In this document: positions 5,502-60,992 of the stretch, in pieces | Position numbering within the stretch: position 1 is the first letter of the stretch | How the letters are laid out: each line of letters starts with the position of its first letter | Assembly: GCA_036768485.1 (NCBI GenBank) | Contig: JAVLUZ010000157.1 | Location: 16,805,877 to 16,869,876 of the forward strand | Length of the DNA: 64,000 bases | Direction: 5' to 3' | From: Mermis nigrescens | Taxonomy: Eukaryota; Nematoda; Enoplea; Mermithida; Mermithidae | Translations under genes and position numbers: made by a program | Notes under the pieces: model-generated | Databases searched by the model: none | Told to the model about the DNA's origin: nothing | Seen by the model: the letters and a program-made list of their open reading frames with translations, nothing else

Positions 5502-5857
5502 TCAGCAAACCAATGCAGCAAGCAATATGGATGAAATTAAATTAATTAAATTCATAAGCAGATTACCCTCTTTTTCGCAGCAAACTGATATAGCAGCGTT
5601 GAACGGAATGCACGAGTACGTGCTGGGACAGGATTTGATCAAACAATTAACAAAGCCGCCAGTAACATCAGCTAATGGTTCACTGTTTGTACCGCAAGTG
5701 TTCGCTGGCGATATTGTTGTTATGACAGCCGCAATCTGCGCTGAAGTCGGACGCCTTGATGTGAAGAAATCTGGAATTCCAACAGCAAACCGAGAATTCA
5801 AAGGTATCACTCCGTTAGTAACTTTGGTCAAACCAGCCGACAAGGGTGCGATGGTAT
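5502..5857 (-). CDS. Kunitz/thyroglobulin gene, last exon (EB/lustrin-like module)
   Basis: The acceptor TTTTTTAAG precedes 5857 and the frame enters with two bases, matching the single base left by the thyroglobulin exon. After a Thr/Pro-rich start comes a cysteine module with CGTNSEPL, GGFVNC, SCPSTYSC and SVCC, the spacing of EB/lustrin-type modules that accompany Kunitz domains in invertebrate secreted proteins. The end is hydrophobic (NLINLISSILLAALVC) and stops at 5502, which could be a GPI-anchor signal. A donor-like GTAATC lies just after SVCCEKEG, so a further 3' exon cannot be excluded. Confidence 0.7.
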
Positions 5858-15060: not shown

Positions 15061-15084
15061 TTTTATTTATTTTAAAATTTTATT

Positions 15085-15282
15085 TTAAAGTTTTTCAAAC
15101 CGTAAAAAGGAGAAAGGACCAAAAGGTTGATAAATAAAAGAATTGTCATACGCGATGCTTGTATTATAGTTGCCGTGTAAAGCACAAGCAGCACGGCCGA
15201 GTTGATTGATGCAGCCTTCTTCTCGTTTTCCATTCAACTTTCGCAAATAATTTAGCACTTGAGTAATGTGCGTTACCAAATC
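15085..15282 (-). CDS. Unknown two-exon gene, exon 2
   Basis: Acceptor TTCTTACATAG precedes 15282; phase 0 entry matches exon 1. The product continues DLVTHITQVLNYLRKLNG and ends SFLRFEKL with stop at 15085, followed by an AATAAA signal (15062-15067 on the forward coordinates). The truncated hairpin element ends right behind the poly-A signal. Confidence 0.6.
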   Translation of the reverse strand, partial: DLVTHITQVLNYLRKLNGKREEGCINQLGRAACALHGNYNTSIAYDNSFIYQPFGPFSFLRFEKL

Positions 15283-17805: not shown

Positions 17806-34255
<16,450 letters not shown>

Positions 34256-38125: not shown

Positions 38126-38129
38126 ATTG
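38126..38129. repeat. Target duplication of Ty3/Gypsy element (left)
   Basis: ATTG, repeated at 60989-60992 after the 3' LTR. Confidence 0.8.
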
Positions 38130-39188
38130 TGTAACTACGAGAGTTACACGGTTTGGCGAACTTGCCTTAGCAGTTCGCGGTAGCCACTCACATAGCCAAT
38201 ACTAGTAGCTATCTACGATAGTGCACTGTGGGCTATGCCTTCAGTCTTCCCACTTTATCCCTAATTTTTATTACAAAATTCTATTAGATACTTGTCCGGT
38301 AAACCAGAGTTACGTATATGCTAACATCAGTAATTTGCTTTGTAAGAGTTATTGAATGTACGATTTCATTGCATTATTATGATCATTTTAGTAAAACGCG
38401 TATATTGTATTATTTTACGTTCAGTTCTATTTTTTGTGAGCGTCGATGGACGCCAACGTTCGTGTTCCATATTAGTTTTTACATAACCTATAATATCGTT
38501 TAGTTCTATTTTTTGTGAGCGTCGATGGACGCCAATTGAGACATGTAAATTTGGCATTTATAAATTGGTCGATGTTAGTGAGTTTATTGTATTATATGGC
38601 AGTGTATGATTTTTTCCTAAATATATTGGTCGCCTTTACATCGTCGAGGACTTCTATTTATAGTGGAAAGGAATGGTGAATACTGTTTAATTATTTATTT
38701 CGCTCAAAATTCAATAATCTTTTCTCAACACTAAAATTAGCCAAAAACTTTATTTAATTATTTATGATGATTGACCAGATGAGAGCTCGTTGTTGCTGTA
38801 TTTAAAGTTCATTGTGCTACCTACATTAGGAACCAAAAACATTTCAAGACAAGTGTAAACTAAGAAAATAAGTTAATTTATCAACTTGAGCTGGGGTGAG
38901 ATAGGTCAACTGACCTGGCGGCATTCCGGGATTTAGGTAGGTACGAGTGTTAGGATTTAGGGCGTAGCTGCTGAGACTCCCGACTAAAAGCGGTCAGCAA
39001 TATTAGGACTGAGGGAGTCGAAGCCGTAGGTCTACAAGGGTCCAGAGAATCGAAGTTGTTATTTGACTACGCGATTGGGACCAGCGCTAAGAGCAGATTT
39101 AGGTACCTAAGTAAATCCCGAAGGTGAATACATACATCCGTTTCTATGTTGATTTTGTAGACATAGAGCGGATCCCATTGTATTTATA
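38130..39188 (+). repeat. 5' LTR
   Basis: 1059 bp beginning TGTAACTACGAGAGTTACA, itself an inverted repeat, and ending GTATTTATA. Matches 56037-56390 plus 60283-60988 with only scattered differences. Holds an internal direct repeat of about 38 bp (TTCTATTTTTTGTGAGCGTC at about 38420 and 38502). The point between 38483 and 38484 is the empty site of the insertion found in the 3' LTR. Confidence 0.9.
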
Positions 39189-39901: not shown

Positions 39902-42900
39902 ATGGCTGGTAAGAAAACTTTAAAAACGTCTCCGGTGAAGAAAAAGCCTTCGACTCCTTCTAATTCGGTTTGCCAACAAAAAACCGTACTTGCTGACTCT
40001 AATTCGAGTACAAATAATGACAAATTACCCTCGTCATTACATGCTTCGCGTGTTTCACATTCTGACGACGAGTATATACTTAACAATGCGCGATCGATCA
40101 TTAATAATTATGCTAACCCTGTTAGAGATAATTTACATAATGATACGATCATCGATAATACGCACACCCTTAATAAGTCAAATAACCAGGAACCTGGTTC
40201 TGAGCCGCATAAATTAGCCTCCGATGAAGAGTGCAATAATGGCTTAAGCATAAAAACCGAAAATAATTGCACCGAGCCTATTGTTACTAATCAACTTATA
40301 TTTGAGACTCTGCAATGTATACGTATGCAGTTTTCGAACCTTTCTTCACGTGTAAATCAAGATAAAGAGGAAAATTCGGAAGAAATGCGTAAACTTCGAG
40401 CAGAATTAAGTAATCTACTTAAGCCGCCAATAGTTTCTAAACGCATTGAAATTAACCCATCTCAAAATTCGGGTTATGCAGAACATTTACCTACGACTTC
40501 GCAGAAGTCGTTATCTCGGCCATTGCTTTCGTTAAATCGAAATGCGCCTTCATTTGTGCCTAATTCATTAAATTCGACTTCGCAGCCGAGGTTAAACCCT
40601 CCTCCGCTGCAATATTTTCCTTTAAATGTCGAATTACCGCCAAATAATTTCGTTTCGAATCCTTCGAATATCGAAATTCCGCCAAATAATTCTATTTTGC
40701 ATTCTTCAAATATAGAAATTCGGCCACAAGAACTTAACTTGTCTGGCGAAAATATCGAACCTAATAATCAGCAAAATTCATCTATGCAATTACCCGAGTC
40801 ATCCGCAAGGAGACGTCGTGTAAAATTTTCTGATGAAAGTTCGAGTAGTTATGATCGCCCACGTCGCCATCATTCACGTAGTAGACATAGTCCACGACGT
40901 CATCGCCATCGTCACCGTCACGATTCGGATTCCTCATCAGGTTCTGAGCATAGCAAGTCACACCTTGCTGATACTCTAAATCGTGGACCTTTCATGCAAC
41001 AAATGCAAATTGCTATCGCAAATAAAAAATTTTTTAATGCGGATAAATCAGATATACGAGCATTTTTCACAGAATTTGAATCGCTTGCTGACACTTACGA
41101 TATCGATAAATCGGTTCGTGTCAAATTCATGTCATCATTTTTAGACCCCTACGCTTCGCGTCTATTCCATTCGTTATCTGCTGATATAAGACAATCTTAT
41201 ACGAAATCGAAGTATGCGTTAATAGCGGAATTTTGTCCTTTGGACACCGAAACGCTTTTTGATCGTTTTTTAGAACGTAAACAGCAGCCTAACGAATCGG
41301 TTAAAGCATTTTATCTTGCGATTCGTGAACAATTGATAAAAGCACAACCGCATCTTGAAATCGACTGTGATCATTTCAATCATTTGCTTCGTCATCAATT
41401 GAAAAAAGGCCTATTACCTGAAATATCAAAAGAAGCGTATCATTGTGCGCCAAAAGCATCACTGGCTGAATTCTTAGATAACGCTTTAAACGCTGAGTTC
41501 GCGAATAACGAATATGCGAATAAAAAAGCGTTAACGCCGTATGTATCGGTAACAGCCGCCCCTACAGGAGGCGCAATACCCAAAGATACATTTCGTGCGT
41601 CTAATCAAAATGAGCCAGATCGCTCGTTTCAGAATACATTTTATCGTTCGTCGCGCGTTGAGAAACCACAAAATTCTTCTCGTAAATATTGCACCTTTTG
41701 CAAACGCACAGGTCATGTCTACGAAGAATGTTTCACGCGTCAGCGACAACAAACATCTAATAATAATAATTATTCTGACCGTAATAGAAACAATTCTATG
41801 GCTCGCAATCGCAGCCAGTCGCGTTCTTTTACGCAGCGATATCGTTCGCCATCGCGTTCGAATTCGCAAAATCGAAATTATTCTCAATCTCGATTTCGTA
41901 ACCCTAGTCAAAATCGCTCACCAAATTATGCGAATAATGATAATCGCTTCGATTCGAGGCAAGCACGATCGAATTTTTGGCAAAATCATAACGATTACCA
42001 ACAAAATTCGCATGCCAATTATCAAAATTCGCATTACGATAATCGCTATTTGCACCAGTTGCGACAAAACGAGCCTTATGTTCAGTTTCCTAACGAACAA
42101 CGCTCAACATATTATAATTCGAATTATCGTACTGATAATGTTGCTGATCGCCCATATGTTACATATGCCGCTGATCGCCAACCCACCATAAATTCGCCCC
42201 CACCACAGCCAACCCTTACATCTCATAATGATGTAAACACGGTTACTGCAAAAGGGCTAGAAACAAGCACGCATTCTAACTTATTTGCGTCGCGAGAATT
42301 TCTCAAAGAGTATGAGCGCTTACAGCGTCGTCTCGCGATCTATGAACAAATAAATTCACCTCCAATTAAAACCATCGATTCGAATATTCCGAGTGTAAAT
42401 CATGCTGGGACGAATCTGCCCACGATTCTCGTTAATATTCATGGTGTAGATGTTCCCGCGCTCATAGATACGGGTTCTCAGGTCACCATGATGACCACAT
42501 CTGCATTTTTACGACTTGGTTTTAATCTACCACCTAAACAAATCTCTCAAGTTGTTCATGGTGTAGGTGAAATCACAGCAGTCGTGCGATACAAAGTAAA
42601 AATGACTATCACAATTGCTGATCATGCAATTCCCACGGTAGTATCTATTATAGATAATTTGCCGGAAGATATACTCTTGGGATTTGATTTTTGTGAATCC
42701 GCTCTAATGTGGGTTAATCCTATCGAGCGTTGTGCATTTTTAAATGGCATAAAAGTTAAACTTTTATCACCATCCGAAAAAACTCAGCTTCACGCGAAAG
42801 CCAACACGACCACTTCTGGTGTTGTATGTGTTCATGTTTCGCTACCGGAGCCAGTAATCATACAACCTCGACACGAATTAATAACCCCAGGATATATAAG

Positions 42901-43171
42901 TCATGGTTCTTGCGATTTCGATATCGCTTTATTCGAACCAAATTCCGACTTCATGGAAAAAACATCACTTTTTCTGGCACCTTCTATAATTGATGCATCA
43001 CAACCTATATTTCCTGTTCGTGTATGTAATATCTCTAAAGCGCCAATTCGCATCGATTCTGGCGATATTATTGGTTCACTAATCACTGACGTTGAAGTTG
43101 TGTCTCATGTCGCCAATTCAGACGATAGGACACCAGAACTTTTCTCATCAATAAATAAAGTGTTAAGCGGT
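39902..43171 (+). CDS. Gag-protease part of Ty3/Gypsy polyprotein
   Basis: Opens at ATG 39902. The N-terminal 330 residues are Ser/Asn-rich, followed by an Arg/His-rich patch. A capsid-like helical region lies at about residues 370-540 (ADKSDIRAFFTEFESLAD). A CCHC zinc knuckle is at 597-610 (CTFCKRTGHVYEEC), then Arg/Ser/Asn-rich linker. An aspartic protease has LIDTGSQVT at 854-862 and DILLGFDF downstream. The frame runs into the palindromic insert at 43172 and ends by chance at 43318. Its frame continues directly into the sequence right of the insert, so gag and pol were probably one reading frame. Confidence 0.9.
43166..43171. repeat. 6-bp target duplication of palindromic element (left)
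   Basis: AGCGGT; the right copy at 51638-51643 is AACGGT (5 of 6). Confidence 0.65.
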
Positions 43172-43252
43172 AGTAGTAACGCCCGACCCTCTGGAACGCA
43201 CTCTGTAACGCAGCAGGTTATAGTGCACTTGCACTTTAAGCGCCCGCTTTGT

Positions 43253-43360
43253 AAGCAGGGCGCTATAGCTGCGAGTCAAACCAGCGCCAAGGGGGGTGTA
43301 TTAAGCAGGGCGTTTTAGCTGCGATTCAGACCAGCGCCCGGGGGGTGTATTAAGCAGGGT
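43253..43360 (+). repeat. Subterminal 50-bp iterons (left)
   Basis: AAGCAGGGYG starts at 43253, 43303 and 43352, each of the first two followed by AGCTGCGA, ACCAGCGCC and a G6 run. Mirrored in the right arm near 51449-51556. Confidence 0.8.
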
Positions 43361-43729
43361 GTGTAATATTCAATCGAGCTCATGGCATCATTCAAGTGAC
43401 GTCACCCCCTTGAAGTACACAGTATTTTCTCGCTTAATACGATAAGCTTGAGATTATAATTTTCGAGAGTGCACATACTTACGCATAAGTCCTTCTTACA
43501 TCTAAATGTGCTTTGGTATGTACCTATGTGCAATTTTGTATGTGGCATAATACAAAGATTTAATTAGGTATTAATCTACAATAATATGTTAATTCACTCG
43601 ATATATTGATACAACAACTCGCCAAGTAGCTATTTAGATTTTTAACGCCCTACTAATAAATAATAGCACTACAGAGTGACAAACGAACAGCAATTTTTTA
43701 AATTTATTCTAATGTACATGGTTTGGCGA

Positions 43730-44215
43730 CTAACATTCGCCGGACCCCAGCCAGAAACCGCGCTCCGACCAGGCGATATTATTGGAGCTCGCGTCAGAAT
43801 AGTCATTGTTGCTGACGCGGCGAACTTCCGGCATGATGGGTAGAATTATTGGCAACGTGTTTACAGTAATAAAGTTGTTTGGGTCGCCGAGGTACGTAGC
43901 GTCTTCGGCGTGTATCCCTCCCCAAAATTGTTTACCAATCACCGATAAAGAGTTAAATAATACGGTTAAAGAAAAATGAATAGGAATATTGGTGTTCGTT
44001 ATTAGGTTCCAAATGTACGAGTCAAAGTAGTCTCTGTATTGATTGTTGGAAACGGATGATAAATTGAATAATTGTGTTTTCGTGTCAAAGTCAATGATAT
44101 CATGGAAAAAATTAGCATATAAACTTTTTAAATGATGATCGTAAATGGAATTGTGACCGTTTAAACGAAAGTGGTGTAAAAATAATCCAAGGTTGTCGAG
44201 CGCTGTTTGATTCAT
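43730..44215 (-). CDS. Unknown 161-aa protein, left arm copy
   Basis: ATG at 44215 directly follows TTTTGCAG. Reads MNQTALDNLGLFLHHFRLNG, a mostly helical, Asn/Phe-rich N-terminal half, then PEVRRVSNNDYSDASS and a Trp/Gly end WSERGFWLGSGEC. The mirrored copy differs at one residue only, which suggests constraint or recent duplication. No family recognised. Confidence 0.55.
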   Translation of the reverse strand: MNQTALDNLGLFLHHFRLNGHNSIYDHHLKSLYANFFHDIIDFDTKTQLFNLSSVSNNQYRDYFDSYIWNLITNTNIPIHFSLTVLFNSLSVIGKQFWGGIHAEDATYLGDPNNFITVNTLPIILPIMPEVRRVSNNDYSDASSNNIAWSERGFWLGSGEC

Positions 44216-45144
44216 CTGCAAAATGATAATGTTTTTTAAAAACAAGCAGCCTCATTTGAAAAGTCTTTTTATAAGTGTGTACAGGTACGAAAAATTGACA
44301 AATTTTACACAAGTAGCGTGATTAAAAAGCGAAATATATTAAAGAGCAGATAATATGATTTTTGTGGAATAAAATTGCTTCGAGGCTTTATTAGGTATTG
44401 TTAAGTAATGAACGCACGGGCTTTACTAAGCTAAACTCGAAATCGTTGAAATTTTTATTGTTTTGCACCCGCATACAGAGCTGAAAAACGCCAGGCGTAG
44501 AAATGATTGAACTCAGCAGCTGAAAAATATAATTTAGAAAACGAGTTCTTTCAGCCCATGTGAAAAAGTTTTTTCGAACAACGCAGTTAGCTTGGAAAAC
44601 GTTTCAGTAGAAAAAAGATTGAATCCCCCAGGTGAAAAAGTTAATTTATAAAGTGTAGGCTGCGCCGTAGTTGGAAAGCGTTGCTTCGAACAGAACAAAG
44701 TTGCAATAGCGTAATTTAGAAAAAAGATTAATCTTTTTAAAGCTAATTTAGTAAAAAGCCGAACCACAATCAACTTTTAATGCGCCTGAAATAATAGAAA
44801 CAAAGCGCGGTATCGATTTTAGCATACAAACGCGGCTATTGTCAAGAATGAAAACATACTACTAAAACTAACGATTCGTCGCACTGAAATAAGAATGCAT
44901 CTATGAAACTAAGTCTAAGCTACGAAAAATTATTCATTTATCAGAAGTGCTAGCAATATCCGGCTTGAACACACTGCAGGAGTTGACAATTTCCCAAAGT
45001 AATTTTGAGGCAAAGTCGCAGGAATCGTTTTTTTCGACGGCATCTTGCTTTAATTTGTCGTCAGATGGCTCGCTCGACCAAAATTAGTAGGTTGTTTACT
45101 TTTCAGCTAAGTGACGGAACGCCTATATCCACTAGAACTTTTCA

Positions 45145-45530
45145 AGGTTGTAGCTGGCCTTCTATATTTGAAGGAGGACGAGAATTTTGAAGCCAAGTAT
45201 CCCAACAACGACTTGTAGATAGGCAAAAATAATGGTATTTTTTAGCTCTACACAGCAAGATCTACGCACTAAAGTTTTTCTGACGAATTTAAGTTTATTT
45301 AAATTATATTCAAAATATGCTTCATGTAAATAAATGGGTACAACGCGGCCTTGAATTTTGGACTTTTTAGTCCAAGGAGTGCTGAAATCTATTTAAACGA
45401 TGTTTTAGATGCGCTTCAGAATTTTAAATTTCTCCTTTGGCGGGCCCTGGTAGAAAATATTCGTACTTCCAAAATTTTGGGTAAACTAGTCCCCCTTTAT
45501 CTCCTAAAGCTACGCCACTGGCGCTGCTAA
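45145..45530. mobile_element. Worn hAT-type MITE in left arm
   Basis: GTAGCTGGCCTTCT near the left and, in reverse, CAGTGGCGTAGCTTTAGGAG at the right, with interior sharing GATAGGCAAAAATAATG with the TMEM245 exon 1 element. Mirrored at about 49275-49660. Confidence 0.6.
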
Positions 45531-45898
45531 TAGATGGTCTCAAGGGACTTTGGGGGAAAGCGGCTAATTTCCTCAGTAAAGTATTGTAAATCAAAGGCCA
45601 AAAATGAACAAATGTAGCGATTAATAAGCCTTTTTGTGTAATTATTTCCTACTGCTGTTCATGAATGCTTCCTTGGCATCAGTTTCATTTATAATTTTAC
45701 TTACCGTGTTTTATTCGCACCATCAATATATCATTCATTTTAAGTTTTTGGCGGGATACCCCAGCCTGAGTCGCATGATGTCTAGATGCAATTAAATTAC
45801 AATTACCTCACAGTGAGCGTATGTGCTACACACGCGCATCAAAATATGAAAGATCCATCTGGTTTTTCTGACTGATATAGCTTACAAGGGTCTATGGC

Positions 45899-46157
45899 CA
45901 TAGGTGGGCAGCACCGAAATTCTGGGGGGGGATTTAAAAAATTTTCAAATGTCAAAAAATGGTCTTAAAAGTGGTCGTATGACGAAAAAACACCATTTTT
46001 CGACGTTTCTCGTTGAGCAGTATCCTTTGGCATCAAAAAATCGCTAAAAAAGCAAAAAATTTCAAAATTTGAACTCTGGGGGTATTTTGATTTCTGGGGG
46101 ATATTTCAACTTCTGGGGGGCATACCCCCCGAACCTCACCTCCAATGCACACGTGTG
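45899..46157 (+). mobile_element. CATAGGTGGGCAGC-type MITE in left arm
   Basis: CATAGGTGGGCAGCACC to CACACGTGTG; flanks TCTATGGC and TCCACGGC (6 of 8). Mirrored at 48647-48904. Confidence 0.7.
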
Positions 46158-46405
46158 TCCACGGCTATGTAAAGGTTTAATGCCATAAATGTAAGCAATT
46201 TATTGTTCTAAAGCACATACACGTCAGTTACCCGATTAAATTGATATTGGTTATAGGTACCTACATTTAACAACTGGTAATATAGTATCTGATAATGTAC
46301 AGTAAAGTGAATGGCGCATATCATTGTGCAATCAACCAAACATTTTATCGACGCAGATATAGTACCTTTCGATGATTTATCTTGTCAATCGAAAATCTTT
46401 AACTT

Positions 46406-47116
46406 TCACCAGCGTTTTAGCATATTGTTGTATTCTTGGGTTGACACTGTTTCTCGACTTTTTGGCATTTCACTCGTATCTTCATTATCTTCTTGCCTTT
46501 CTTGTAATTCATCAGACAGGATATCAGCATTTTTACTAATGAGTTTCTTGAATAGATGCTTTCGAGAATTCCATGCCATCTTTGTTGCTTCAGTATCCCC
46601 GAAACTCAGCTTTGATTTTAAAAAGTCTGCCGTTGCAGACAGTTTTGTATCTAAATCACTTTCTTCCAATGCTTTTTGGAGGAAAACATGTTTGTCATAA
46701 TTTTCGTGAAGCTTTGACAAAAAAGCGTTGAAGAAGGGAGGGCTGCTCAGTTTTTCAGCGGCATCTGGAATAACTGCCATATCTCGTACAGCATTTTCCA
46801 TCATTGCACGCCAGAATTCATTCTTCCAACCACTTTTGATATCAGGCTCATCATCACTATCTGAAATATCGTCTGATGTTTCTTCGTCCTCGGAACTCTC
46901 TTGGTCGTCCTCTTTCTCTTCCATTTCTCGTTTTTCCTGTTTGCCTTCTTCCTCACTTTCTTCTGAAGTAACAGATTCATTATCTTCTGTATCACTGTTT
47001 GCAGTATCCATTGAGGGGTGTAATAGCTGATGATGCCTTTTTAATGTAAAATTATTTGACAATGTTTTGTTGCACAGCGTGCATAGAACAACCATGCCTG
47101 AATCGGCCAAAGACAT
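46406..47116 (-). CDS. C2H2 zinc-finger/acidic protein, 236 aa, left arm copy
   Basis: Starts MSLADSGMVVLCTLCNKTL; Cys12, Cys15, His28/29 and His33 form one C2H2 finger. Residues 36-92 are strongly acidic (SEESEEEG, EDDQESSEDEE). The C-terminal part is helical with GWKNEFWRAMMENAV and AWNSRKHLFKKLISKN. Identical to the right-arm copy. Likely nuclear and DNA-binding from the finger; role in the element unknown. Confidence 0.75.
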   Translation of the reverse strand: MSLADSGMVVLCTLCNKTLSNNFTLKRHHQLLHPSMDTANSDTEDNESVTSEESEEEGKQEKREMEEKEDDQESSEDEETSDDISDSDDEPDIKSGWKNEFWRAMMENAVRDMAVIPDAAEKLSSPPFFNAFLSKLHENYDKHVFLQKALEESDLDTKLSATADFLKSKLSFGDTEATKMAWNSRKHLFKKLISKNADILSDELQERQEDNEDTSEMPKSRETVSTQEYNNMLKRW

Positions 47117-47325
47117 TAAATGACTGCCACATTTAGATCCTATGTTTTTATAAACACATATTGCACATGTGCTGCACAGTGCACAGCACAGGTGTATACT
47201 GTGAGGTATGGGGACTTCCGATTTTGGGTGGGGGATCCCCCAACCCCCCTGTTACATGTATGTAATGGCTTGACACTGAGCACCCCCCTGTTACATGTAT
47301 GGATGTAATGGCTTGACATTGAGGG

Positions 47326-47478
47326 AGGTCCACCCCGTTTTTAGGGAGACGGGGTAAATGACCTCCAAAAACGCCTAAAAACGGCCAAAATGTGATGTTT
47401 TCGAAAAATCGAGAGGGGTTCAAAAAGTTTCTGGCTCTGAGGGGATGGTAGGACGTCCGACTTTGGTTAGGGTATCTC
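47326..47478. other. Unpaired centre of the palindrome
   Basis: 153 bp with no inverted partner, including CCCCGTTTTTAGGGAGACGG and GACGTCCGACTTTGG. It carries no frame of note. Confidence 0.8.
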
Positions 47479-47687
47479 CCCTCAATGTCAAGCCATTACA
47501 TCCATACATGTAACAGGGGGGTGCTCAGTGTCAAGCCATTACATACATGTAACAGGGGGGTTGGGGGATCCCCCACCCAAAATCGGAAGTCCCCATACCT
47601 CACAGTATACACCTGTGCTGTGCACTGTGCAGCACATGTGCAATATGTGTTTATAAAAACATAGGATCTAAATGTGGCAGTCATTTA

Positions 47688-48398
47688 ATGTCTTTGGCCG
47701 ATTCAGGCATGGTTGTTCTATGCACGCTGTGCAACAAAACATTGTCAAATAATTTTACATTAAAAAGGCATCATCAGCTATTACACCCCTCAATGGATAC
47801 TGCAAACAGTGATACAGAAGATAATGAATCTGTTACTTCAGAAGAAAGTGAGGAAGAAGGCAAACAGGAAAAACGAGAAATGGAAGAGAAAGAGGACGAC
47901 CAAGAGAGTTCCGAGGACGAAGAAACATCAGACGATATTTCAGATAGTGATGATGAGCCTGATATCAAAAGTGGTTGGAAGAATGAATTCTGGCGTGCAA
48001 TGATGGAAAATGCTGTACGAGATATGGCAGTTATTCCAGATGCCGCTGAAAAACTGAGCAGCCCTCCCTTCTTCAACGCTTTTTTGTCAAAGCTTCACGA
48101 AAATTATGACAAACATGTTTTCCTCCAAAAAGCATTGGAAGAAAGTGATTTAGATACAAAACTGTCTGCAACGGCAGACTTTTTAAAATCAAAGCTGAGT
48201 TTCGGGGATACTGAAGCAACAAAGATGGCATGGAATTCTCGAAAGCATCTATTCAAGAAACTCATTAGTAAAAATGCTGATATCCTGTCTGATGAATTAC
48301 AAGAAAGGCAAGAAGATAATGAAGATACGAGTGAAATGCCAAAAAGTCGAGAAACAGTGTCAACCCAAGAATACAACAATATGCTAAAACGCTGGTGA
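47688..48398 (+). CDS. C2H2 zinc-finger/acidic protein, 236 aa, right arm copy
   Basis: Same protein as 46406-47116, read outward on the opposite strand; the two genes diverge from the palindrome centre, with starts 571 bp apart. Shared flanks on both sides mean identical upstream sequence. Confidence 0.75.
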   Translation: MSLADSGMVVLCTLCNKTLSNNFTLKRHHQLLHPSMDTANSDTEDNESVTSEESEEEGKQEKREMEEKEDDQESSEDEETSDDISDSDDEPDIKSGWKNEFWRAMMENAVRDMAVIPDAAEKLSSPPFFNAFLSKLHENYDKHVFLQKALEESDLDTKLSATADFLKSKLSFGDTEATKMAWNSRKHLFKKLISKNADILSDELQERQEDNEDTSEMPKSRETVSTQEYNNMLKRW

Positions 48399-48646
48399 AA
48401 GTTAAAGATTTTCGATTGACAAGATAAATCATCGAAAGGTACTATATCTGCGTCGATAAAATGTTTGGTTGATTGCACAATGATATGCGCCATTCACTTT
48501 ACTGTACATTATCAGATACTATATTACCAGTTGTTAAATGTAGGTACCTATAACCAATATCAATTTAATCGGGTAACTGACGTGTATGTGCTTTAGAACA
48601 ATAAATTGCTTACATTTATGGCATTAAACCTTTACATAGCCGTGGA

Positions 48647-48904
48647 CACACGTGTGCATTGGGGGTGAGGTTCGGGGGGTATGCCCCCCAGAAGTTGAAA
48701 TATCCCCCAGAAATCAAAATACCCCCAGAGTTCAAATTTTGAAATTTTTTGCTTTTTTAGCGATTTTTTGATGCCAAAGGATACTGCTCAACGAGAAACG
48801 TCGAAAAATGGTGTTTTTTCGTCATACGACCACTTTTAAGACCATTTTTTGACATTTGAAAATTTTTTAAATCCCCCCCAGAATTTCGGTGCTGCCCACC
48901 TATG
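48647..48904 (-). mobile_element. CATAGGTGGGCAGC-type MITE in right arm
   Basis: Mirror copy of 45899-46157, including the same flanking duplication sequences, so it was duplicated with the arm. Confidence 0.7.
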
Positions 48905-49274
48905 GCCATAGACCCTTGTAAGCTATATCAGTCAGAAAAACCAGATGGATCTTTCATATTTTGATGCGCGTGTGTAGCACATACGCTCACTGTGAGGTAA
49001 TTGTAATTTAATTGCATCTAGACATCATGCGACTCAGGCTGGGGTATCCCGCCAAAAACTTAAAATGAATGATATATTGATGGTGCGAATAAAACACGGT
49101 AAGTAAAATTATAAATGAAACTGATGCCAAGGAAGCATTCATGAACAGCAGTAGGAAATAATTACACAAAAAGGCTTATTAATCGCTACATTTGTTCATT
49201 TTTGGCCTTTGATTTACAATACTTTACTGAGGAAATTAGCCGCTTTCCCCCAAAGTCCCTTGAGACCATCTATT

Positions 49275-49660
49275 AGCAGCGCCAGTGGCGTAGCTTTAGG
49301 AGATAAAGGGGGACTAGTTTACCCAAAATTTTGGAAGTACGAATATTTTCTACCAGGGCCCGCCAAAGGAGAAATTTAAAATTCTGAAGCGCATCTAAAA
49401 CATCGTTTAAATAGATTTCAGCACTCCTTGGACTAAAAAGTCCAAAATTCAAGGCCGCGTTGTACCCATTTATTTACATGAAGCATATTTTGAATATAAT
49501 TTAAATAAACTTAAATTCGTCAGAAAAACTTTAGTGCGTAGATCTTGCTGTGTAGAGCTAAAAAATACCATTATTTTTGCCTATCTACAAGTCGTTGTTG
49601 GGATACTTGGCTTCAAAATTCTCGTCCTCCTTCAAATATAGAAGGCCAGCTACAACCTTG
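49275..49660. mobile_element. Worn hAT-type MITE in right arm
   Basis: Mirror copy of 45145-45530. Confidence 0.55.
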
Positions 49661-50593
49661 AAAAGTTCTAGTGGATATAGGCGTTCCGTCACTTAGCTGA
49701 AAAGTAAACAACCTACTAATTTTGGTCGAGCGAGCCATCTGACGACAAATTAAAGCAAGATGCCGTCGAAAAAAACGATTCCTGCGACTTTGCCTCAAAA
49801 TTACTTTGGGAAATTGTCAACTCCTGCAGTGTGTTCAAGCCGGATATTGCTAGCACTTCTGATAAATGATATATTTTTCGTAGCTTAGACTTAGTTTCAT
49901 AGATGCATTCTTATTTCAGTGCGACGAATCGTTAGTTTTAGTAGTATGTTTTCATTCTTGACAATAGCCGCGTTTGTATGCTAAAATCGATACCGCGCTT
50001 TGTTTCTATTATTTCAGGCGCATTAAAAGTTGATTGTGGTTCGGCTTTTTACTAAATTAGCTTTAAAAAGATTAATCTTTTTTCTAAATTACGCTATTGC
50101 AACTTTGTTCTGTTCGAAGCAACGCTTTCCAACTACGGCGCAGCCTACACTTTATAAATTAACTTTTTCACCTGGGGGATTCAATCTTTTTTCTACTGAA
50201 ACGTTTTCCAACTCGGCCTAACTGCGTTATTTGAAAAAACTTTTTCACATGGGCTGAAAGAACTCGTTTTCTAAATTATATTTTTCAGCTGCTGAGTTCA
50301 ATCATTTCTACGCCTGGCGTTTTTCAGCTCTGTATGCGGGTGCAAAACAATAAAAATTTCAACGATTTCGAGTTTAGCTTAGTAAAGCCCGTGCGTTCAT
50401 TACTTAACAATACCTAATAAAGCCTCGAAGCAATTTTATTCCACAAAAATCATATTATCTGCTCTTTAATATATTTCGCTTTTTAGTCACGCTACTTGTG
50501 TAAAATTTGTCAATTTTTTCGTACCTGTACACACTTACAAAAAGACTTTTCAAATGAGGCTGCTTGTTTTTAAAAAACATTATCATTTTGCAG

Positions 50594-51079
50594 ATGAATC
50601 AAACAGCGCTCGACAACCTTGGATTATTTTTACACCACTTTCGTTTAAACGGTCACAATTCCATTAACGATCATCATTTAAAAAGTTTATATGCTAATTT
50701 TTTCCATGATATCATTGACTTTGACACGAAAACACAATTATTCAATTTATCATCCGTTTCCAACAATCAATACAGAGACTACTTTGACTCGTACATTTGG
50801 AACCTAATAACGAACACCAATATTCCTATTCATTTTTCTTTAACCGTATTATTTAACTCTTTATCGGTGATTGGTAAACAATTTTGGGGAGGGATACACG
50901 CCGAAGACGCTACGTACCTCGGCGACCCAAACAACTTTATTACTGTAAACACGTTGCCAATAATTCTACCCATCATGCCGGAAGTTCGCCGCGTCAGCAA
51001 CAATGACTATTCTGACGCGAGCTCCAATAATATCGCCTGGTCGGAGCGCGGTTTCTGGCTGGGGTCCGGCGAATGTTAG
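50594..51079 (+). CDS. Unknown 161-aa protein, right arm copy
   Basis: Same as 43730-44215 with one substitution (Asn for Tyr near residue 26). It reads outward toward the palindrome end. Confidence 0.55.
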   Translation: MNQTALDNLGLFLHHFRLNGHNSINDHHLKSLYANFFHDIIDFDTKTQLFNLSSVSNNQYRDYFDSYIWNLITNTNIPIHFSLTVLFNSLSVIGKQFWGGIHAEDATYLGDPNNFITVNTLPIILPIMPEVRRVSNNDYSDASSNNIAWSERGFWLGSGEC

Positions 51080-51448
51080 TCGCCAAACCATGTACATAGT
51101 ATAAAATTTAAAAAATTGCTGTTCGTTTGTCACTCTGTAGTGCTATTATTTATTAGTAGGGCGTTAAAAATCTAAATAGCTACTTGGCGAGTTGTTGTAT
51201 CAATATATCGAGTGAATTAACATATTATTGTAGATTAATACCTAATTAAATCTTTGTATTATGCCACATACAAAATTGCACATAGGTACATACCAAAGCA
51301 CATTTAGATGTAAGAAGGACTTATGCGTAAGTATGTGCACTCTCGAAAATTATAATCTCAAGCTTATCGTATTAAGCGAGAAAATACTGTGTACTTCAAG
51401 GGGGTGACGTCACTTGAATGATGCCATGAGCTCGATTGAATATTACAC

Positions 51449-51556
51449 ACCCTGCTTAATACACCCCCCGGGCGCTGGTCTGAATCGCAGCTGAAACGCC
51501 CTGCTTAATACACCCCCCTTGGCGCTGGTTTGACTCGCAGCTATAGCGCCCTGCTT
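51449..51556 (-). repeat. Subterminal 50-bp iterons (right)
   Basis: Inverted copies of the left-arm iterons, with a T/C difference inside one unit. Confidence 0.75.
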
Positions 51557-51643
51557 ACAAAGCGGGCGCTTAAAGTGCAGGTGCACTATGACGTGCTGCG
51601 TTACAGAGTGCGTTCCAGAGGGCCGGGCGTTACTACTAACGGT

Positions 51644-54600
51644 TCTGCCGTTAATTCGCAACAACAACAACAAATTCGTGAACTTTGCCTAAAATACGAT
51701 TCCATTTTCGCTTTAAAAAACGAGCCTCTTGGCCGGACCCCTTGGTCAAACATCATATTGATACCGGGGATAATCCGCCAGTGGTTGGAAAAACATATCG
51801 TGTCAAACATTCTCAACGAAATTCTATGCAGAAAATCATCAACGAAATGCTTGCTGATAAAATCATTCGGCCCACGACCAGTCCATGGGCTAGTCCATTG
51901 TTCCTCATAGGAAAAAAGGACGGTTCCCTAAGACCTGTCGTTGATTATCGCAGATTAAATGATGTAACTAAAACACAAGTATATCCTTTGCCTCAGCTCG
52001 ATGATTATTTCGATACGCTAGGCTCAGTTGCTTATTTTAGTACATTAGATCTAAAATCTGGATACTGGCAAATCCCACTCGATGATAAATCTCGAGAAAA
52101 AACCGCATTCATATGCCCTGTTGGTCATTATGAATTTGAAGTGCTACCTTTTGGATTAAAAAATGCGCCCGCAGATTTCCAGAGACTAATGGAGCTAGTT
52201 CTCGCAGGTCTCAATTGGAAATCTTGCCTTGTTTATATCGATGATATAATCATTTTTTCGCGCACATTTGAAGAACATTTACAAGATCTCCAAAACGTAT
52301 TCATCGCACTTCAAAGCGCAAAATTACGGGTTAAACCTGATAAATGTCATCTTGCTCAAGCCGAAGTAAAATTCCTTGGCCATAGCATTAGTTCGCTTGG
52401 CATTGCTCCCGATATGTCCAAAGTCACCGATTTAGTCGCATTTCCCGTTCCAAAAACGGTTAAATCTTTACAAAAATTCCTTGGCTTAGTCCAATGGTTT
52501 AAAAAATTCGTTAAAGATCTGGCTAAAATCGCTAAACCTTTATTCCATCTTCTTCGTAAAGATGTTGAATTTTGCTGGACTGGCGAGCATCAAACTGCTT
52601 TTGAACTATTGAAAAAAGCATTTACTTCGCCTCCAATATTGCAACTACCTAAATTCGACGATGACCACCAATTTATTTTAACAACTGACGCTAGTAACTA
52701 TGCGTTAGGTGCTATTTTAACACAAAAGCATTTACCGTCGAAATCTCGCTTCATTCTTAGCTACGCTAGTCGTGTGCTAAATTCTGCCGAATGTAACTAT
52801 GCTACTTCGGAGAAAGAAGCGTTAGCAGTTGTCTGGGCAATCAAACATTATAGACATTATTTATATGGTACAAAATTTATTGTCGAAACTGATCACCAAG
52901 CACTAACTTGGCTTGTGAATGTAAAAGACCCATCGAGTCGATTACGTCGTTGGGGTCTCAAATTACAGGAATATGAGTATGAAATCGTGTACGTTCCTGG
53001 CGCATATAATTGTGCAGCGGATCTATTATCACGACATCCTAAATATGATCATGCTGAACATAAATATAAACTCGAACGAAAATCTATCGTTAATATCGCA
53101 AATTTAGACTCAGAAGATTCTGAATCTGAGGACGAATCGGTCCCACCTGACCGACCACGCGATAATATTCCTAATTTACCATCTAATAATCCTAATGCGC
53201 CCATTGACCCTACAAATAATCGACCTCCTACTTTTCGTGAGCGCATTCAGCTTACTGAAGCAGAAAAAGCTGAAATGCTAACGCCTGCGCGATTACTCGC
53301 AGAGCAGCGTGCTGATGACGAATTGCATAAAATTCGCATTGCGTTGAACGATTTAACAACGAAAAAATATCGTGACGAGTTTTTTCTCGTAAACGATATC
53401 ATTTTTCGTCGTTTCCAACCAAAGCGTTCACCTACTGTCGTTCATCAGCTAGTAATTCCCAAATCACTACGTCGTTTTATTTTGACCGAATTTCATGATT
53501 CCATTTTTGGAGCTCATTTTTCATCGCGTAAAATCTTACCAGCCATACAAATGCGTTATTGGTGGCCGCGTATGGAAAATGATGTGATCGCTTGGTGTAA
53601 GAATTGTGATGTTTGCTTGCAACGCAAGGTCGCATTAAATTCTACATCTGTTCCTATGCAACCAATTGAGGTGTCTGCACCTTTTGAACTCATTGCATGT
53701 GACTGTTTGCATATGCCGCGATCATCATCCGGTAATGACCAAATTGTAGTGTTTATGGATTATTTTACCAAATATGTGGAAGCTTTCGCTGTTTCCGACA
53801 TAAAAGCTACAACTATAGCTAATCTCTTATTGCACGAAATCATTCCACGTTATGGAGTTCCTAAACGATTTTTAACCGATCAGGGTTCGAATTTTACATC
53901 CGCCTTGATTTCGGAAGTTTGTAAATTACTTAACGTTCAAAAAATCTTTACGACCCCATATCACCCTCAGTGTGATGGTCTCGTTGAACGTTATAATCGA
54001 ACTCTCATTGATGGTTTATCCAAATTAAGCGCAAGAAATGAGTATGATTGGGAGCAATATTTGTCGTTTGCATTGTTCGCGTATCGTGCGACTCCGCAAG
54101 CATCAACAAATATCTCACCTTTTGAAATGCTATATGGTCGCGAACCCGCATTTCCTCTCGATATTTTACTCATAAATGATCTAACTATAAATCCAAATTT
54201 ACCACCAATTGCGGAAAAGTATGTCATAGATTTAAAGCTTACGTTGCAAGATTTGCACGAAATAGCTTCTAAAAATCTATCACAAGCACGTAAACAACAA
54301 AAAACGCAATACGATAAAACCGTCACCGAACATAATTTTGCTGTTTCGGATATCGTTTATCTTAATAATACTTCGGTGATAGATCCCGAAATTGGTAAAT
54401 TATCACCTAAACGCGTAGGCCCGTATAGAATCGTGGCACTACCAACGCCTGAAACCGCAAAAATTGTATATGTCTATAATCCTTTAATTAGCCATCTCAT
54501 TCATCGAAATAGACTTCTTCCAGAGCCTAAACTACCTTATTCGGATTTAATTGCCGAAAAGCACGCATATGTCCCTGGTGATTTTGTGTTGGTAAAGCTA

Positions 54601-54846
54601 CCACATCGCCCTCTGGCTCCGGCTGTAGTCATAAGTTTTTCGGACTTACCGGGCCGGGAGAAGAGATTACGGGACTGCGCGCCGGTACGTTTATTAAATG
54701 GCTCTAAAACCGCACATACAATCCCATTATCTGACATTTCTCCTTTTGCTGAACCATGGCTGAGCAAGTTGCCAACAGCAAAGAGGAACTCTTGGAGTCA
54801 GTTGGTCAGCGATTTTAGTATAAAAGTCGCGAACCAGCCAATTTGA
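51644..54846 (+). CDS. Reverse transcriptase-RNase H-integrase part of Ty3/Gypsy polyprotein (frame slip near 51740)
   Basis: From 51644 one frame reads a Gln run and IRELCLKYDSIFALKNEPLG; near 51735-51745 (run of Cs) the reading shifts to the frame open from 51685 to 54846. Numbered from 51685: reverse transcriptase about 55-235 with YIDD at 184-187; RNase H about 330-450 (TTDASNYALG, ETDHQALTW); zinc-binding HHCC about 603-645; integrase catalytic Asp673, Asp732 and Glu768 with the usual 35-residue spacing. The C-terminal region binds no recognised extra domain. The slip looks like a one-base loss rather than a programmed shift, since it falls inside pol. Confidence 0.92.
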
Positions 54847-56028: not shown

Positions 56029-56036
56029 TGGGGGAG
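56029..56036 (+). other. Polypurine tract
   Basis: GTGGGGGAG immediately before the 3' LTR TGTAAC. Confidence 0.7.
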
Positions 56037-56390
56037 TGTAACTACGAGAGTTACACGGTTTGGCGAACTTGCCTTAGCAGTTCGCGGTAGCCACTCACAT
56101 AGCCAATACTAGTAGCTATCTACGATAGTGCACTGTGGGCTATGCCTTCAGTCTTCCCACTTTATCCCTAATTTTTATTACAAAATTCTATTAGATACTT
56201 GTCCGGTAAACCAGAGTTACGTATATGCTAACATCAGTAATTTGCTTTGTAAGAGTTATTGAATGTACGATTTCATTGCATTATTATGATCATTTTAGTA
56301 AAACGCGTATATTGTATTATTTTACGTTCAGTTCTATTTTTTGTGAGCGTCGATGGACGCCAACGTTCGTGTTCCATATTAGTTTTTACA

Positions 56391-59300
56391 TCTTAGGTAG
56401 CGCGTTAGCGCGTACCTATAATATACTTGGGTACCCCCAACACCTGTGCACCCCCCTACAGCTATAACGGGACACTTCTGGAAGGTGCGGTTTTTTTAAA
56501 AGAAAGATAATAAAAAAATTCGCTGCCCGTGTTTTTTTGTTTTTCTTGAAACTCAAAATTGACTGTGTAAAGAAGGTGTAAAGTTTTTGTGTAACGTTAT
56601 AACATAGGACAAATTTTGGGACCTTTTTACTGCGGCATGTGGACAACTGAGTATTGATGACTCGAAGGATTGAACAGAATAGGATAATAGAGGGATGAAT
56701 TCTACAGATGACACTTTTTTTGTTTTTTGAAATTCGCATTAGTTATCGAACGGCAGTGTAAAGAGTGCGAAAATCTGGGGGTGAAAAAGCACTTTTTGGT
56801 CGAGTTTTCAACCTTCCTATGTCCGATACTAACTCCGGTTATGAGGTTTTTAAAATGTTTTCTGACAGAAATGTAGAGCGGATCAAGGGCTACATTCTGC
56901 ATATAAGCAAAGTCTTCTATGCTCTATGGTGAGTTAGATCCTGGGGTTTAAAGTTTACACTCTAGTGGATGGTGTAAAAAAACGGATTTTAACTAAGATT
57001 TCTCTGCCAAATTTTTCCGCTTATGAGTCAGTGCAAATCAAAGACAGCATTAATAAAGTGCCTCACAGGGGCTAAACATCGCAGCAAACCGCATTTAAAA
57101 AACGCAATATTGAGTTATTTATGGGGGTGTAAAGTTCGAAATCAGAGGTAAAAAATGGGCGAAAAAACACGTTTTTTCCGAAGTTTGATTGATAAATCAT
57201 ACCAAATAATTTTTGCAACAGAATTTTGGCACACAGGAATGTACTACGATTTAAAAGCTACAAATTGTACCAAACCGAATTTCTTTAAACTCAATGGGGA
57301 GTTCGGTACGGAATTTTAAAGTTTACAGTGTTCTAAATGATGGAAAATACGTTTTTGTTGCGTTTTTTGTTCGCCACTTTCTCCGTCCAGAAGTCGGGAT
57401 AAGTCTAATAGAATAAAAATAAAGTGCTTTATATCGGGTGCATGTCAAAGCAAATTGTCTATACATTAATATTTAGCGAGTGTAAAGTCAAAAATTTGGA
57501 GTTTAAAATGCGTTTCTGTCTTGTTTTTTCTGCCTGCTTCTCCGGTTACGAGTCAGGGACACGTTTATCAAGTCTAGAAATGGACCAGGAACCAAATTTG
57601 ATATGCCAGTCTGGCGCATATGTTTACACTCTACGGTGTTGTAAAGTAGTTTACACCAATTGTTAGTTTGCCCATAGAACATTATGTAGACTTAATTTTT
57701 TCATAAATATTAATCGTAATATCGGAACAATATCAAAATTACGAATCTGACTAAAATCTTCTTTACACTAGGTGTTTACATGAAGTTTACACTACATATG
57801 TATTTATCTTCGTTTTTGAGCATTCCAGAAACCTAATTTTTTCTTGGAGTCTAGAAGTTTTCAAAGGATCAAATGTGAGACGTCACGTAGGCGCGTTTGT
57901 TTACATCCAACAGTGATGTAAAGTAGTTTACACTCATTGTTTATATGTCCTCAGACCATTGTAGAGACATAATTTTTTCATGAATGTTGATCATAATATC
58001 CGAGTAATTTTTTACACTGCATGTTAGCCTTTGTTCTAGAGCATTGCAAAAATCGAAATTTTTTCCTGAGATATAAAAATTTACAGGGAATGAAATATAT
58101 ACGTCAGTTGGGCGCGCTTGCTTACACTCAGCAGTATTGCAAAGTGGTTTAAACCTAATGTTTATTGTCTTTAAAACATTATGGAGACTCATTTTTCCAT
58201 AAATGTTGAAAGAAATATCGGAGCAATATCAAAATTACGAATCCGACTAAAATATTCTTTACGCTATGTGTTTGTGTAAAGTTTACGTTACGTGTTAACC
58301 TTAATTCGATAGACTTGCAGAGACTTTGTAACTGAAGTCAAGAAATTTTCAAGGATTCATATGTGAGACATCAATTAAGTGAGTTTGTTTACCCTCAAAA
58401 GTAATCTAAAGTGATTTAAAAATTATGTTCAAGTGTCCTTAGATCATTGAAGAGATGTAATTTTGTCTTAAATGGGTTGCATTAAAGTTAAATCTTTCTT
58501 AGCCGTGTTTATAATATGTTTCACAAAATCTTGCACTTGGAGAGCTATCGTTTAATTGATGTAAATTGCCTGCAAAAGTGGTTTAAAATGAACCAGCAAT
58601 CACACTACTGTGCACAGAAGTCGACAAAGATATGCAGCTTTATTGTAATCATGTACATTAATAAGCCGTAAACTGTTAGTATTCTCTACACCTAGTAGTT
58701 GTGTAAAGTTTGCACTATTCATTTGTTGTTAATATGTAGTCTATACTACAAATTTATTTTACTACCAAATCAAAGCGTTAGTGTTCCTTACATTTGATAT
58801 TTGCGTGAAGTTTTTGAATTTTTGCCGAAAATCTTTGCCTTCTAATTTACCAACATCCCGCCTTTTCCATTTTCTTGAAGTTTAAAATCTTTTATAATTC
58901 TCTCAATAATTTAATGGTAGGTTTTAACTTTAAGTTTCTCTTGGTTTACAACTCTCGCTTAGCAAGCTCATTTTTCAAAACTTTTTCATAGTGATCAGAT
59001 TAGTCGCGTTTAGTTTGGAATTGGTGGACGGTCGTTATTTTATTACTCGGCTTAAATAAACCAAGTGACTATCTTTTGATTATTTTCTTTATCGCAAATT
59101 CAAACACCCAATTTTCAATTTGAAAATTGACCCAATTCAATTTGAAAATTGATCCAATTTAATTTGAAAATTGATCCAATTTTCAATTTGAAATTGAAAT
59201 TGAAAATTGGGTGTTTTCAATTTCAAAAGTCACAACACATTGTGCTTGTGTATTGATTGAGTGAGGATTTGCAATGTGAATTCGTTGGTTAAATTTTTGT

Positions 59301-60282
59301 GCTTGATTATAAGTGAACTGCACATTAAGAAGAAATAACTTAATGCAGTTTTAATTTGAAAATGGATGGTGTCAATAAGGTTGTCTTGTTTAAAAAGGAT
59401 AATGCTGATGTTAAGAACAATATTGTTTTCCGCGTTCTTGGACTGTTGTCATTATTGTGGCATGTTACTGATTGTGTTTACTGACTGATGTACTGAAATC
59501 ACGCTAATTAAAAGTAGTGTACTAGCAAAGAAAAATGCTCCGATGGAACAAAAAAGATGAATATACTTGGAATTGTGGATTATTATGGATGTAAAAGGAG
59601 GGGACTAGGAAAAATCTACCTAAAGTCGGAAAATCTGCTAAAAATCACACTTTCTCTAAGCAACGCAAAAAATCGATGTATATTCTGCGGCCTCTAAAAA
59701 AGTGTCTTTTTTAAATAATGTTCGAAGTTTCAGATAAGAGTGTATAAACGAAATCTATCAAGGTTACTTTTTTAAATTGCTGGCACCTGATTGATAGAAA
59801 ACTAAGAGGTATTGTATTTAAAGTTGTTTTGTTTTATGAGCATTATAGCAAGCAAAGCAGGAGCCGATTGATTAGTGCACACAATCGTTTCGGGCATGCT
59901 AGTGTATCTACATTAAGTCTGTTTCAAGTCAACTTACGTGTTTCCTACTGTTTTTAACCAACCATGTCTTCAATTGTCTTCGATGTTTGCTATTTCATTC
60001 AATTGGCTTGGAAGACTGTTAGTTTACTTAATATCATTTCCCATAGCTACTGCATAGCTAACGTGCTGCTGTTTCAATCATTGTTATGGTTGAATATTTA
60101 TTTTAATCTGTTGGCCGCAGAATATACATCGATTTTTTGCGTTGCTTAGAGAAAGTGTGATTTTTAGCAGATTTTCCGACTTTAGGTAGATTTTTCCTAG
60201 TCCCCTCCTTTTACATCCATAATAATCCACAATTCCAAGTATATTCATCTTTTTTGTTCCATCGGAGCATTTTTCTTTGCTA
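56391..60282. mobile_element. Hairpin/foldback element copy 3, full length, in 3' LTR
   Basis: Begins TCTTAGGTAGCGCGTTAGCG (terminal hairpin to about 56417), ends GGAGCATTTTTCTTTGCTA. The 5' LTR gives the empty site (TTTTTACA|TAACC), showing insertion with no target duplication beyond at most two bases. Internal parts: degenerate tandem units of about 200-250 bp rich in GTGTAAAG/TTTACAC, an inverted cluster near 59100-59225, and a terminal foldback with arms of about 175 bp (59521-59693 and 60111-60282). No coding sequence. Confidence 0.75.
59100..59225. repeat. Palindromic CAATTTGAAAATTG cluster
   Basis: Several copies of CAATTTGAAAATTG-like words bounded by ACACCCAATTTTCAATTT and its inverse AAATTGAAAATTGGGTGT. 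Confidence 0.75.
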
Positions 60283-60992
60283 TAACCTATAATATCGTTT
60301 AGTTCTATTTTTTGTGAGCGTCGATGGACGCCAATTGAGACATGTAAATTTGGCATTTATAAATTGGTTGATGTTAGTGAGTTTATTGTATTATATGGCA
60401 GTGTATGATTTTTTCCTAAATATATTGGTCGCATTTACATCGTCGAGGACTTCTATTTATTAGTGGAAAGGAATGGTGAATACTTTTTAATTATTTATTC
60501 CGCTCAAAATTCAATAATCTTTTCTCAACACTAAAATTAGCCAAAAACTTTATTTAATTATTTATGATGATTGACCAGATGAGAGCTCGTTGTTGCTGTA
60601 TTTAAAGTTCATTGTGCTACCTACATTAGGAACCAAAAACATTTCAAGACAAGTGTAAACTAAGAAAATAAGTTAATTTATCAACTTGAGCTGGGGTGAG
60701 ATAGGTCAACTGACCTGGCGGCATTCCGGGATTTAGGTAGGTACGAGTGTTAGGATTTAGGGCGTAGCTGCTGAGACTCCCGACTAAAAGCGGTCAGCAA
60801 TATTAGGACTGAGGGAGTCGAAGCCGTAGGTCTACAAGGGTCCAGAGAATCGAAGTTGTTATTTGACTACGCGATTGGGACCAGCGCTAAGAGCAGATTT
60901 AGGTACCTAAGTAAATCCCGAAGGTGAATACATACATCCGTTTCTATGTTGATTTTGTAGACATAGAGAGGATCGCACTGTATTTATAATTG

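Follow-up and report, generated by a model that had tools for sequence, protein, structure and literature searches.

How did a near-perfect palindrome of 8466 bp, with arms reaching over almost the whole of it, come to lie inside the polyprotein of a Gypsy retrotransposon? The question is raised by a 64,000-nucleotide stretch from the nematode Mermis nigrescens (contig JAVLUZ010000157.1, forward strand, positions 16,805,877 to 16,869,876), referred to here at its full length as the window. The palindrome is an element inserted into Gypsy, and we lean towards its being a non-autonomous palindromic mobile element with Maverick/Polinton-type ends, which would have arisen by fold-back of one end together with host DNA. 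One insertion in the window is the only copy behind all conclusions on the element.

The inverted-repeat search returned four long blocks and two short pairs, the latter belonging to subterminal tandem repeats. When one arm was aligned by MAFFT with the reverse complement of the other, 27 of 4160 columns differed, and an inverted repeat of 4 kb is well outside chance expectation. An initial annotation of this DNA had described 4.15-kb inverted arms, a 153-bp centre, the ends AGTAGTAACGCCCG and CGGGCGTTACTACT and the immediate flanks AGCGGT and AACGGT, a geometry borne out by the repeat search and the alignment. It had omitted the two intact open reading frames (ORFs) of each arm, the host repeats in the inner arm and the uneven distribution of the arm differences. 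The palindrome is built as follows:

43172–47325, no strand: left arm, 4154 bp, from the inverted-repeat search and the arm alignment
47326–47478, no strand: centre (loop), 153 bp; the inverted repeat runs on imperfectly for about 10 bases inside it
47479–51637, no strand: right arm, 4159 bp, from the inverted-repeat search and the arm alignment
43172–43185, + strand: left tip AGTAGTAACGCCCG, with the Maverick-type (AGT)2 end motif (motif from PMC8097293)
51624–51637, − strand: right tip, the left-tip sequence inverted, with (ACT)2
43252–43359, + strand: subterminal tandem repeat, 50-bp unit, 2.2 copies
51450–51557, − strand: mirror of the subterminal tandem repeat

The tips of the palindrome coincide exactly with a break in the Gypsy reading frame. 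The flanks were compared in registers of 2 to 11 bases, and only the six-base register exceeds 4 matches (5/6); the longer registers match at 4/7, 2/8, 2/9 and 0/10 bases. At the base composition of the window, a flank match of at least 5/6 has a chance of 0.65% in one register. Joining 30 bases of each flank, with one 6-bp copy removed, gave an open frame, FSSINKVLSGSAVNSQQQQQ, which reads FSSINKVLSG before the insertion site and SAVNSQQQQQ after it, and the element and 6 bp together have a length divisible by three. Tips at the frame break, nearly duplicated flanks and an open joined frame all bear out the initial view of an insertion inside a Gypsy polyprotein. The two long terminal repeats (LTRs) of this Gypsy differ by 8 events when counted by BLAST, or in 10 of 1063 MAFFT columns; the retrotransposon is therefore young, and the palindrome inside it younger. 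The insertion and its surroundings are:

43166–43171, no strand: left target-site duplication, AGCGGT
51638–51643, no strand: right target-site duplication, AACGGT, 5/6 match
38129–39188, + strand: left LTR of Gypsy
39902–43171, + strand: Gypsy gag-protease reading frame up to the insertion
51685–54846, + strand: Gypsy reading frame for reverse transcriptase (RT), RNase H and integrase
56036–56391, + strand: right LTR of Gypsy, first piece
60282–60988, + strand: right LTR of Gypsy, second piece, after a nested insertion

The tips point to Mavericks. The end motif seen most often in vertebrate Mavericks is a doubled AGT at the 5' terminus with a doubled ACT at the 3' terminus, and their intact copies carry 6-bp target duplications; an alternative end motif, (AG)3//(CT)3, has been published as well (PMC8097293). 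Here, AGTAGT stands at 43172 and ACTACT ends at 51637, in agreement with this vertebrate-derived motif, and at window composition AGTAGT has a chance of 0.033% at a given tip. As a control, AGTAGT (14 sites) and ACTACT (11 sites) were paired across the window at distances of 200 bp to 30 kb, and three pairs had at least 13/20 tip bases inverted-identical. The palindrome's own tips agree at 19/20 bases with flanks at 5/6, the sole pair with flanks above 3/6; the others are a mirror pair internal to the palindrome (20/20, flanks 0/6) and one unrelated pair (13/20, flanks 3/6). The Polinton-type ends recognised initially from AG and CT do fit, yet AGTAGT...ACTACT is the stronger argument. Against the Maverick length of 6 bp, the duplication AGCGGT/AACGGT agrees at 5/6 bases, and a 7-bp duplication that has lost a base fits too. 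Imperfect duplications are found in relatives, since one integrase-bearing polinton-like virus is described with a 7-bp duplication containing one mismatch (PMC12220804).

The element thus resembles Mavericks/Polintons in its AGTAGT...ACTACT tips, its nearly 6-bp duplication and its inverted terminal repeats, and differs from them in the rest of its architecture. It is 8.5 kb long with 4.15-kb arms, whereas intact vertebrate Mavericks measure 12.7–24.6 kb and have terminal inverted repeats (TIRs) of 46–1447 bp. No unique core separates the terminal repeats, the arms of 4154 and 4159 bp standing around 153 bp, and no polymerase, integrase, ATPase, protease or Maverick capsid was recognised by Pfam in any of the 46 stop-to-stop frames of at least 40 codons that overlap the right arm, where weak, chance-level matches alone were obtained. 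Without a recognised Maverick gene in these frames, the element is not autonomous. Since the motif is present and the duplication nearly so, with the gene set and the core absent, Maverick membership is not established, and a cautious name would be that of a palindromic, non-autonomous element whose ends are of Maverick type. Among the papers listed by the literature searches, none on palindromic Mavericks was recognised by its title or the start of its abstract; most subscription papers lay outside that search, which is not proof of absence. In the nomenclature of related elements, the name Adintoviridae now points to the family Eupolintoviridae.

Each arm looks composite, with an outer part of about 1.8 kb that holds a 161-aa ORF and an inner part of about 2.3 kb that holds host repeats and a 236-aa ORF:

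43172–44933, no strand: outer element-specific part of the left arm, inner limit approximate; 16 of the 18 arm-difference events (both arms compared)
49870–51637, no strand: outer element-specific part of the right arm, inner limit approximate
45139–45481, + strand: inner left arm, two stretches like host DNA at 33607–34102 (66% and 74%)
45895–46157, + strand: inner left arm, dispersed host repeat, 71–81% to five other places in the window
48647–48908, − strand: mirror of the dispersed repeat in the right arm, limits converted from the left arm
50594–51079, + strand: orphan ORF, 161 aa from the first ATG (171 aa from TTG), toward the right tip
43730–44215, − strand: mirror copy of the 161-aa ORF, one amino-acid difference (Y/N)
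47688–48398, + strand: 236-aa ORF with C2H2-type finger spacing and an acidic stretch
46406–47116, − strand: mirror copy of the 236-aa ORF, DNA identical

When the arm was compared with the rest of the window, host repeats were found in its inner part alone; the outer 1628 bp tested (left arm, to 44799) gave short, weak matches, the best with E = 0.002. The dispersed repeat occurs once per arm, and the five outside places are 71–81% identical to the left-arm copy, with weaker fragments besides. The observed/expected ratio of CpG, taken in 300-bp bins of the right arm, follows the same division: 5 of the 6 outer bins (0.98–1.81) exceed the window mean of 1.13, and all 8 inner bins (0.21–1.08) fall short of it, with a step near 1.8 kb. 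The initial annotation had taken the arm to be one end of a larger element, and the host dispersed repeats in the inner arm make this not simply so; they point to a composite of an end plus host DNA, or to nested insertions before the duplication.

The dispersed repeat itself, about 260 bp long and rich in the motif CTGGGGGG, lies outside the palindrome at 10754, 24435, 27665, 32200 and 61563.

The differences between the arms are distributed unevenly as well. Hand grouping of the 27 differing columns left 18 events. The outermost 150 bp holds 5 of them, the adjoining 1611 bp 11 and the remaining, inner 2399 bp 2; a Fisher test of inner against outer gives P = 1e-4. The contrast is weaker, with P = 0.012, when differences at most 20 bp apart are merged into 11 clusters (9 outer, 2 inner). 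Over the outer 1761 bp the divergence of 0.91% matches that between the Gypsy LTRs (P = 0.83 with 8 LTR events, 1.0 with 10 LTR columns), and the inner arms diverge less than the LTRs (P = 0.0019 with 8 events, 0.00025 with 10 columns); the outer arms therefore show the same ageing as the retrotransposon around them, which the inner arms do not. The pattern agrees with two readings, namely conversion from the centre outwards, by way of a hairpin or cruciform, and an inner inverted duplication later than the outer repeats. The idea that the arm divergence exceeds the age of Gypsy, and hence predates the insertion, was dropped, as the whole arms differ less than the LTRs, not significantly so (18/4160; P = 0.22 or 0.057).

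Arms of 4.15 kb around 153 bp, without a unique core, make fold-back duplication the natural origin of the palindrome, and to this extent the initial proposal holds, with a source that is not simply one element end. From the tips, the missing core and the mixed make-up of the arms we infer a model of fold-back with a helper, in which the element is probably a defective mirror-image Maverick derivative carrying host DNA. An ancestral Maverick end would have been joined to host DNA, or would have received host repeats. During protein-primed strand-displacement copying this end would fold back or switch template near the present centre and copy itself, giving a linear DNA with an identical replication end at both tips. 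In adenovirus, which is protein-primed, a duplicated GTA at the template ends is used for jumping back at initiation (PMC4974454); by analogy Mavericks may use the same mechanism, and the doubled trinucleotide would then keep both tips usable. The displaced single strand could fold on itself as a hairpin, with an ordinary end at its tip. With polymerase and integrase supplied in trans by an autonomous Maverick, the integrase would join the tips to a staggered cut in Gypsy, and after insertion gene conversion from the centre outwards, through a hairpin or cruciform, would keep the inner arms near-identical and let the outer arms diverge. The subterminal tandem repeat near both tips is possibly, as a guess, a binding-site array for replication or integration proteins. 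At the centre, a 40-bp stretch of the arm (47202–47241) is repeated directly at the inner edge (about 47438–47481) with a local score of 46, equalled in 1 of 1000 shuffles, and this direct repetition could be the site where the copying strand switched template.

Several observations weigh against this explanation. The target duplication is imperfect, with one mismatch in six, and a 7-bp AAGCGGT minus one right-side base is indistinguishable from a 6-bp duplication with a substitution. The joined Gypsy frame closes about 80 codons beyond the site and the RT domain lies in a different frame from about 51742 (place judged by eye), so that the continuity of the frame is local evidence. The end motif was published from vertebrate elements. 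Neither a Maverick gene nor a relative turned up in any search, in collections that hold few or no animal genomes, which leaves the initial claim of descent from a Maverick-like element without support from the 46 right-arm frames or from relatives. Nor does the single insertion seen establish the initial proposal that the palindrome still integrates. In their outermost 150 bp the arms are more divergent than the Gypsy LTRs are (P = 0.015 with 8 LTR events, 0.029 with 10 LTR columns), an excess left unexplained by conversion alone or by a later inner inverted duplication. Finally, the inverted similarity between the halves of the centre is no higher than in shuffles (score 19, shuffle mean 20.0); a hairpin already present at the centre is thus unsupported, as the halves are no more self-complementary than chance would have them and a ready-made hairpin is not demonstrated.

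The uneven arms bring up a two-step origin, in which an element with Maverick ends, terminal repeats of about 1.8 kb and a short core was later inverted-duplicated. We regard this as doubtful, its odds overlapping with those of the fold-back explanation. The outer 1761 bp, with 16 events, diverges about ten times as much as the inner 2399 bp, which has 2; the last outer difference, at 44933, comes shortly before the first recognisable host repeats at 45139, and TIRs of vertebrate Mavericks reach 1447 bp, all of which such a history would accommodate. However, gene conversion from the centre outwards yields the same pattern, and an outer divergence of 0.91%, equal to that of the Gypsy LTRs, looks as if the outer arms had merely aged after the insertion.

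The main rival, though somewhat less probable still, is an ordinary foldback DNA transposon, such as Tm1 and Tetris of the Mutator/Foldback type or Galileo of the P superfamily, whose TIRs would have grown to fill the element and which a cut-and-paste transposase would have moved. Foldback elements typically have very long, internally repetitive TIRs with little in the middle, and the form may arise independently in separate lineages. Tm1, Tetris and Galileo share with the palindrome inverted repeats that dominate the element, tandem repeats within the TIRs and the ability to carry foreign sequence; they differ in their duplications of 7–10 bp and in their links to transposases, which are of the Mutator superfamily for Tm1 and of the P superfamily for Galileo, with Tetris assigned to Mutator by its duplications. 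It is these lengths that speak against a foldback origin, together with the lack of a transposase domain in all 46 right-arm frames (Pfam). The 8–10 bp published for Tetris and Tm1 compare with flank matches of 2, 2 and 0 bases in registers 8, 9 and 10, and the 7–8 bp of Galileo with 4/7 ungapped; a 7-bp duplication with one lost base is nevertheless compatible with the flanks, as the match rises to 6/7 (by eye) if the right side has lost one base. Near-perfect palindromes are a familiar read artefact. Even so, an assembly artefact, whether from a long read that is chimeric or folded as a hairpin or from a full-length, long-TIR element that was joined wrongly, is quite unlikely here, since the palindrome ends precisely at tips of transposon type, has the two different halves of a single Gypsy on its sides with a 5/6 duplication, and shows partly clustered arm differences (27/4160 columns) unlike those of a folded single read.

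Other elements with 6-bp duplications were considered. IS3EU (usually) and GingerRoot share this length, with termini TA..TA, occasionally TG..CA, and Ginger has TGTNR ends and 4–5-bp duplications, none of which is matched here. For IS3EU, taking TA..TA as the ends leaves the flanks AAGCGG and ACGGTT, which agree at 2/6 bases.

A precedent for the fold-back explanation comes from a virus. In the symmetric recombinant of adenovirus 12 (Ad12 SYREC), the left viral end and human DNA reportedly form a giant palindrome; we take this as a lead rather than a test. By analogy, the architecture of the present element fits an adenovirus-type symmetric recombinant, for in both the end of a protein-primed linear genome, as Ad12 SYREC is said to have, would be mirrored together with host DNA so that a functional end stands on each side. 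Ad12 SYREC is reportedly a packaged virus variant of cell culture, whereas here the palindrome is an insertion in a retrotransposon, and the Maverick link is made by tips and flanks alone.

A broader possibility, which we raise tentatively and hold to be short of likely, is that Maverick replication in an animal germline yields palindromic defective genomes, in which one viral end and captured host DNA are mirrored, and that the helper's integrase inserts these, making them heritable mobile palindromes that carry genes. Among transposons, they would answer to the symmetric recombinants of adenovirus and to defective interfering genomes. Were this true, the element would have the C2H2 and orphan ORF pairs as its cargo, would live on Mavericks as a parasite dependent on a helper, and would also give rise to long hairpin RNA or DNA. 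Should the tips indeed point to a Maverick, the locus would be a snapshot of protein-primed Maverick replication and its errors, which are hard to observe directly. Maverick ends could then be copied in mirror image on both sides of host DNA and inserted again, by which host genes could be moved and giant palindromes, with a destabilising effect on chromosomes, could be made. Natural conversion inside a transposon palindrome may, in addition, be recorded in the unequal similarity of the arms.

Among 300 dinucleotide-shuffled versions of the arm, 3 contain a frame of at least 173 codons and none contains two. In the 161-aa ORF the GC content by codon position is 0.48 at the third and 0.39 and 0.33 at the first two. 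The 236-aa ORF has C2H2-type spacing at about residues 11–33, and its Pfam matches are below the curated cut-offs, the best being DUF4674 (E 0.0026), with C2H2 fingers at E 0.04; its best matches in PHROGs (E 0.049) and PDB (E 0.0013, 36 residues of a designed repeat protein) stand beside no match in NCBIfam. For the 161/171-aa ORF, Pfam returned nothing, and PHROGs (E 0.35), NCBIfam (E 0.15) and PDB sequences (E 0.59) gave chance-level matches. Scans of IMG/VR for the two ORFs gave 2 and 5 pattern stretches, none confirmed, and 0 matches for the two terminal DNA patterns; 43 pattern stretches for the 161-aa ORF in GTDB genomes were likewise not confirmed, and there was no match for the 161-aa ORF in phages or for the 236-aa ORF in plasmids. 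As these collections hold few or no animal genomes, absence from them says little. AlphaFold2 without an alignment produced poor models, with a mean predicted local distance difference test (pLDDT) score of 35.1 for the 161-aa ORF and 48.0 for the 236-aa ORF, the C-terminal part of the latter being predicted as helical with low confidence. No hit came from Rfam or tRNA scans of the window.

The Gypsy copy shows further changes. Its frame shifts at 51685–51760 (by eye), just downstream of the palindrome, so that this copy was apparently damaged irrespective of the palindrome. Its right LTR is split by a nested insertion of about 3.9 kb (56392–60281), parts of which recur near 1681–2087 and 13464–15091; the nested insertion also holds a 170-bp inverted repeat (59523–59692 and 60113–60282, 100% complementary).

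Elsewhere in the window, an IS1595-type (ISXO2-like) DDE transposase frame, which we take to be Merlin-like, lies at 21061–21546 on the − strand within 20463–21757, bracketed by 140-bp inverted repeats (20463–20602 and 21618–21757, 89% complementary). At 4192–8108, also on the − strand, Kunitz, lustrin-type and thyroglobulin-1 domains were detected in 3 of 10 window frames tested; these are possibly exons of one gene for a secreted multidomain protein, and such domains point to animal DNA.

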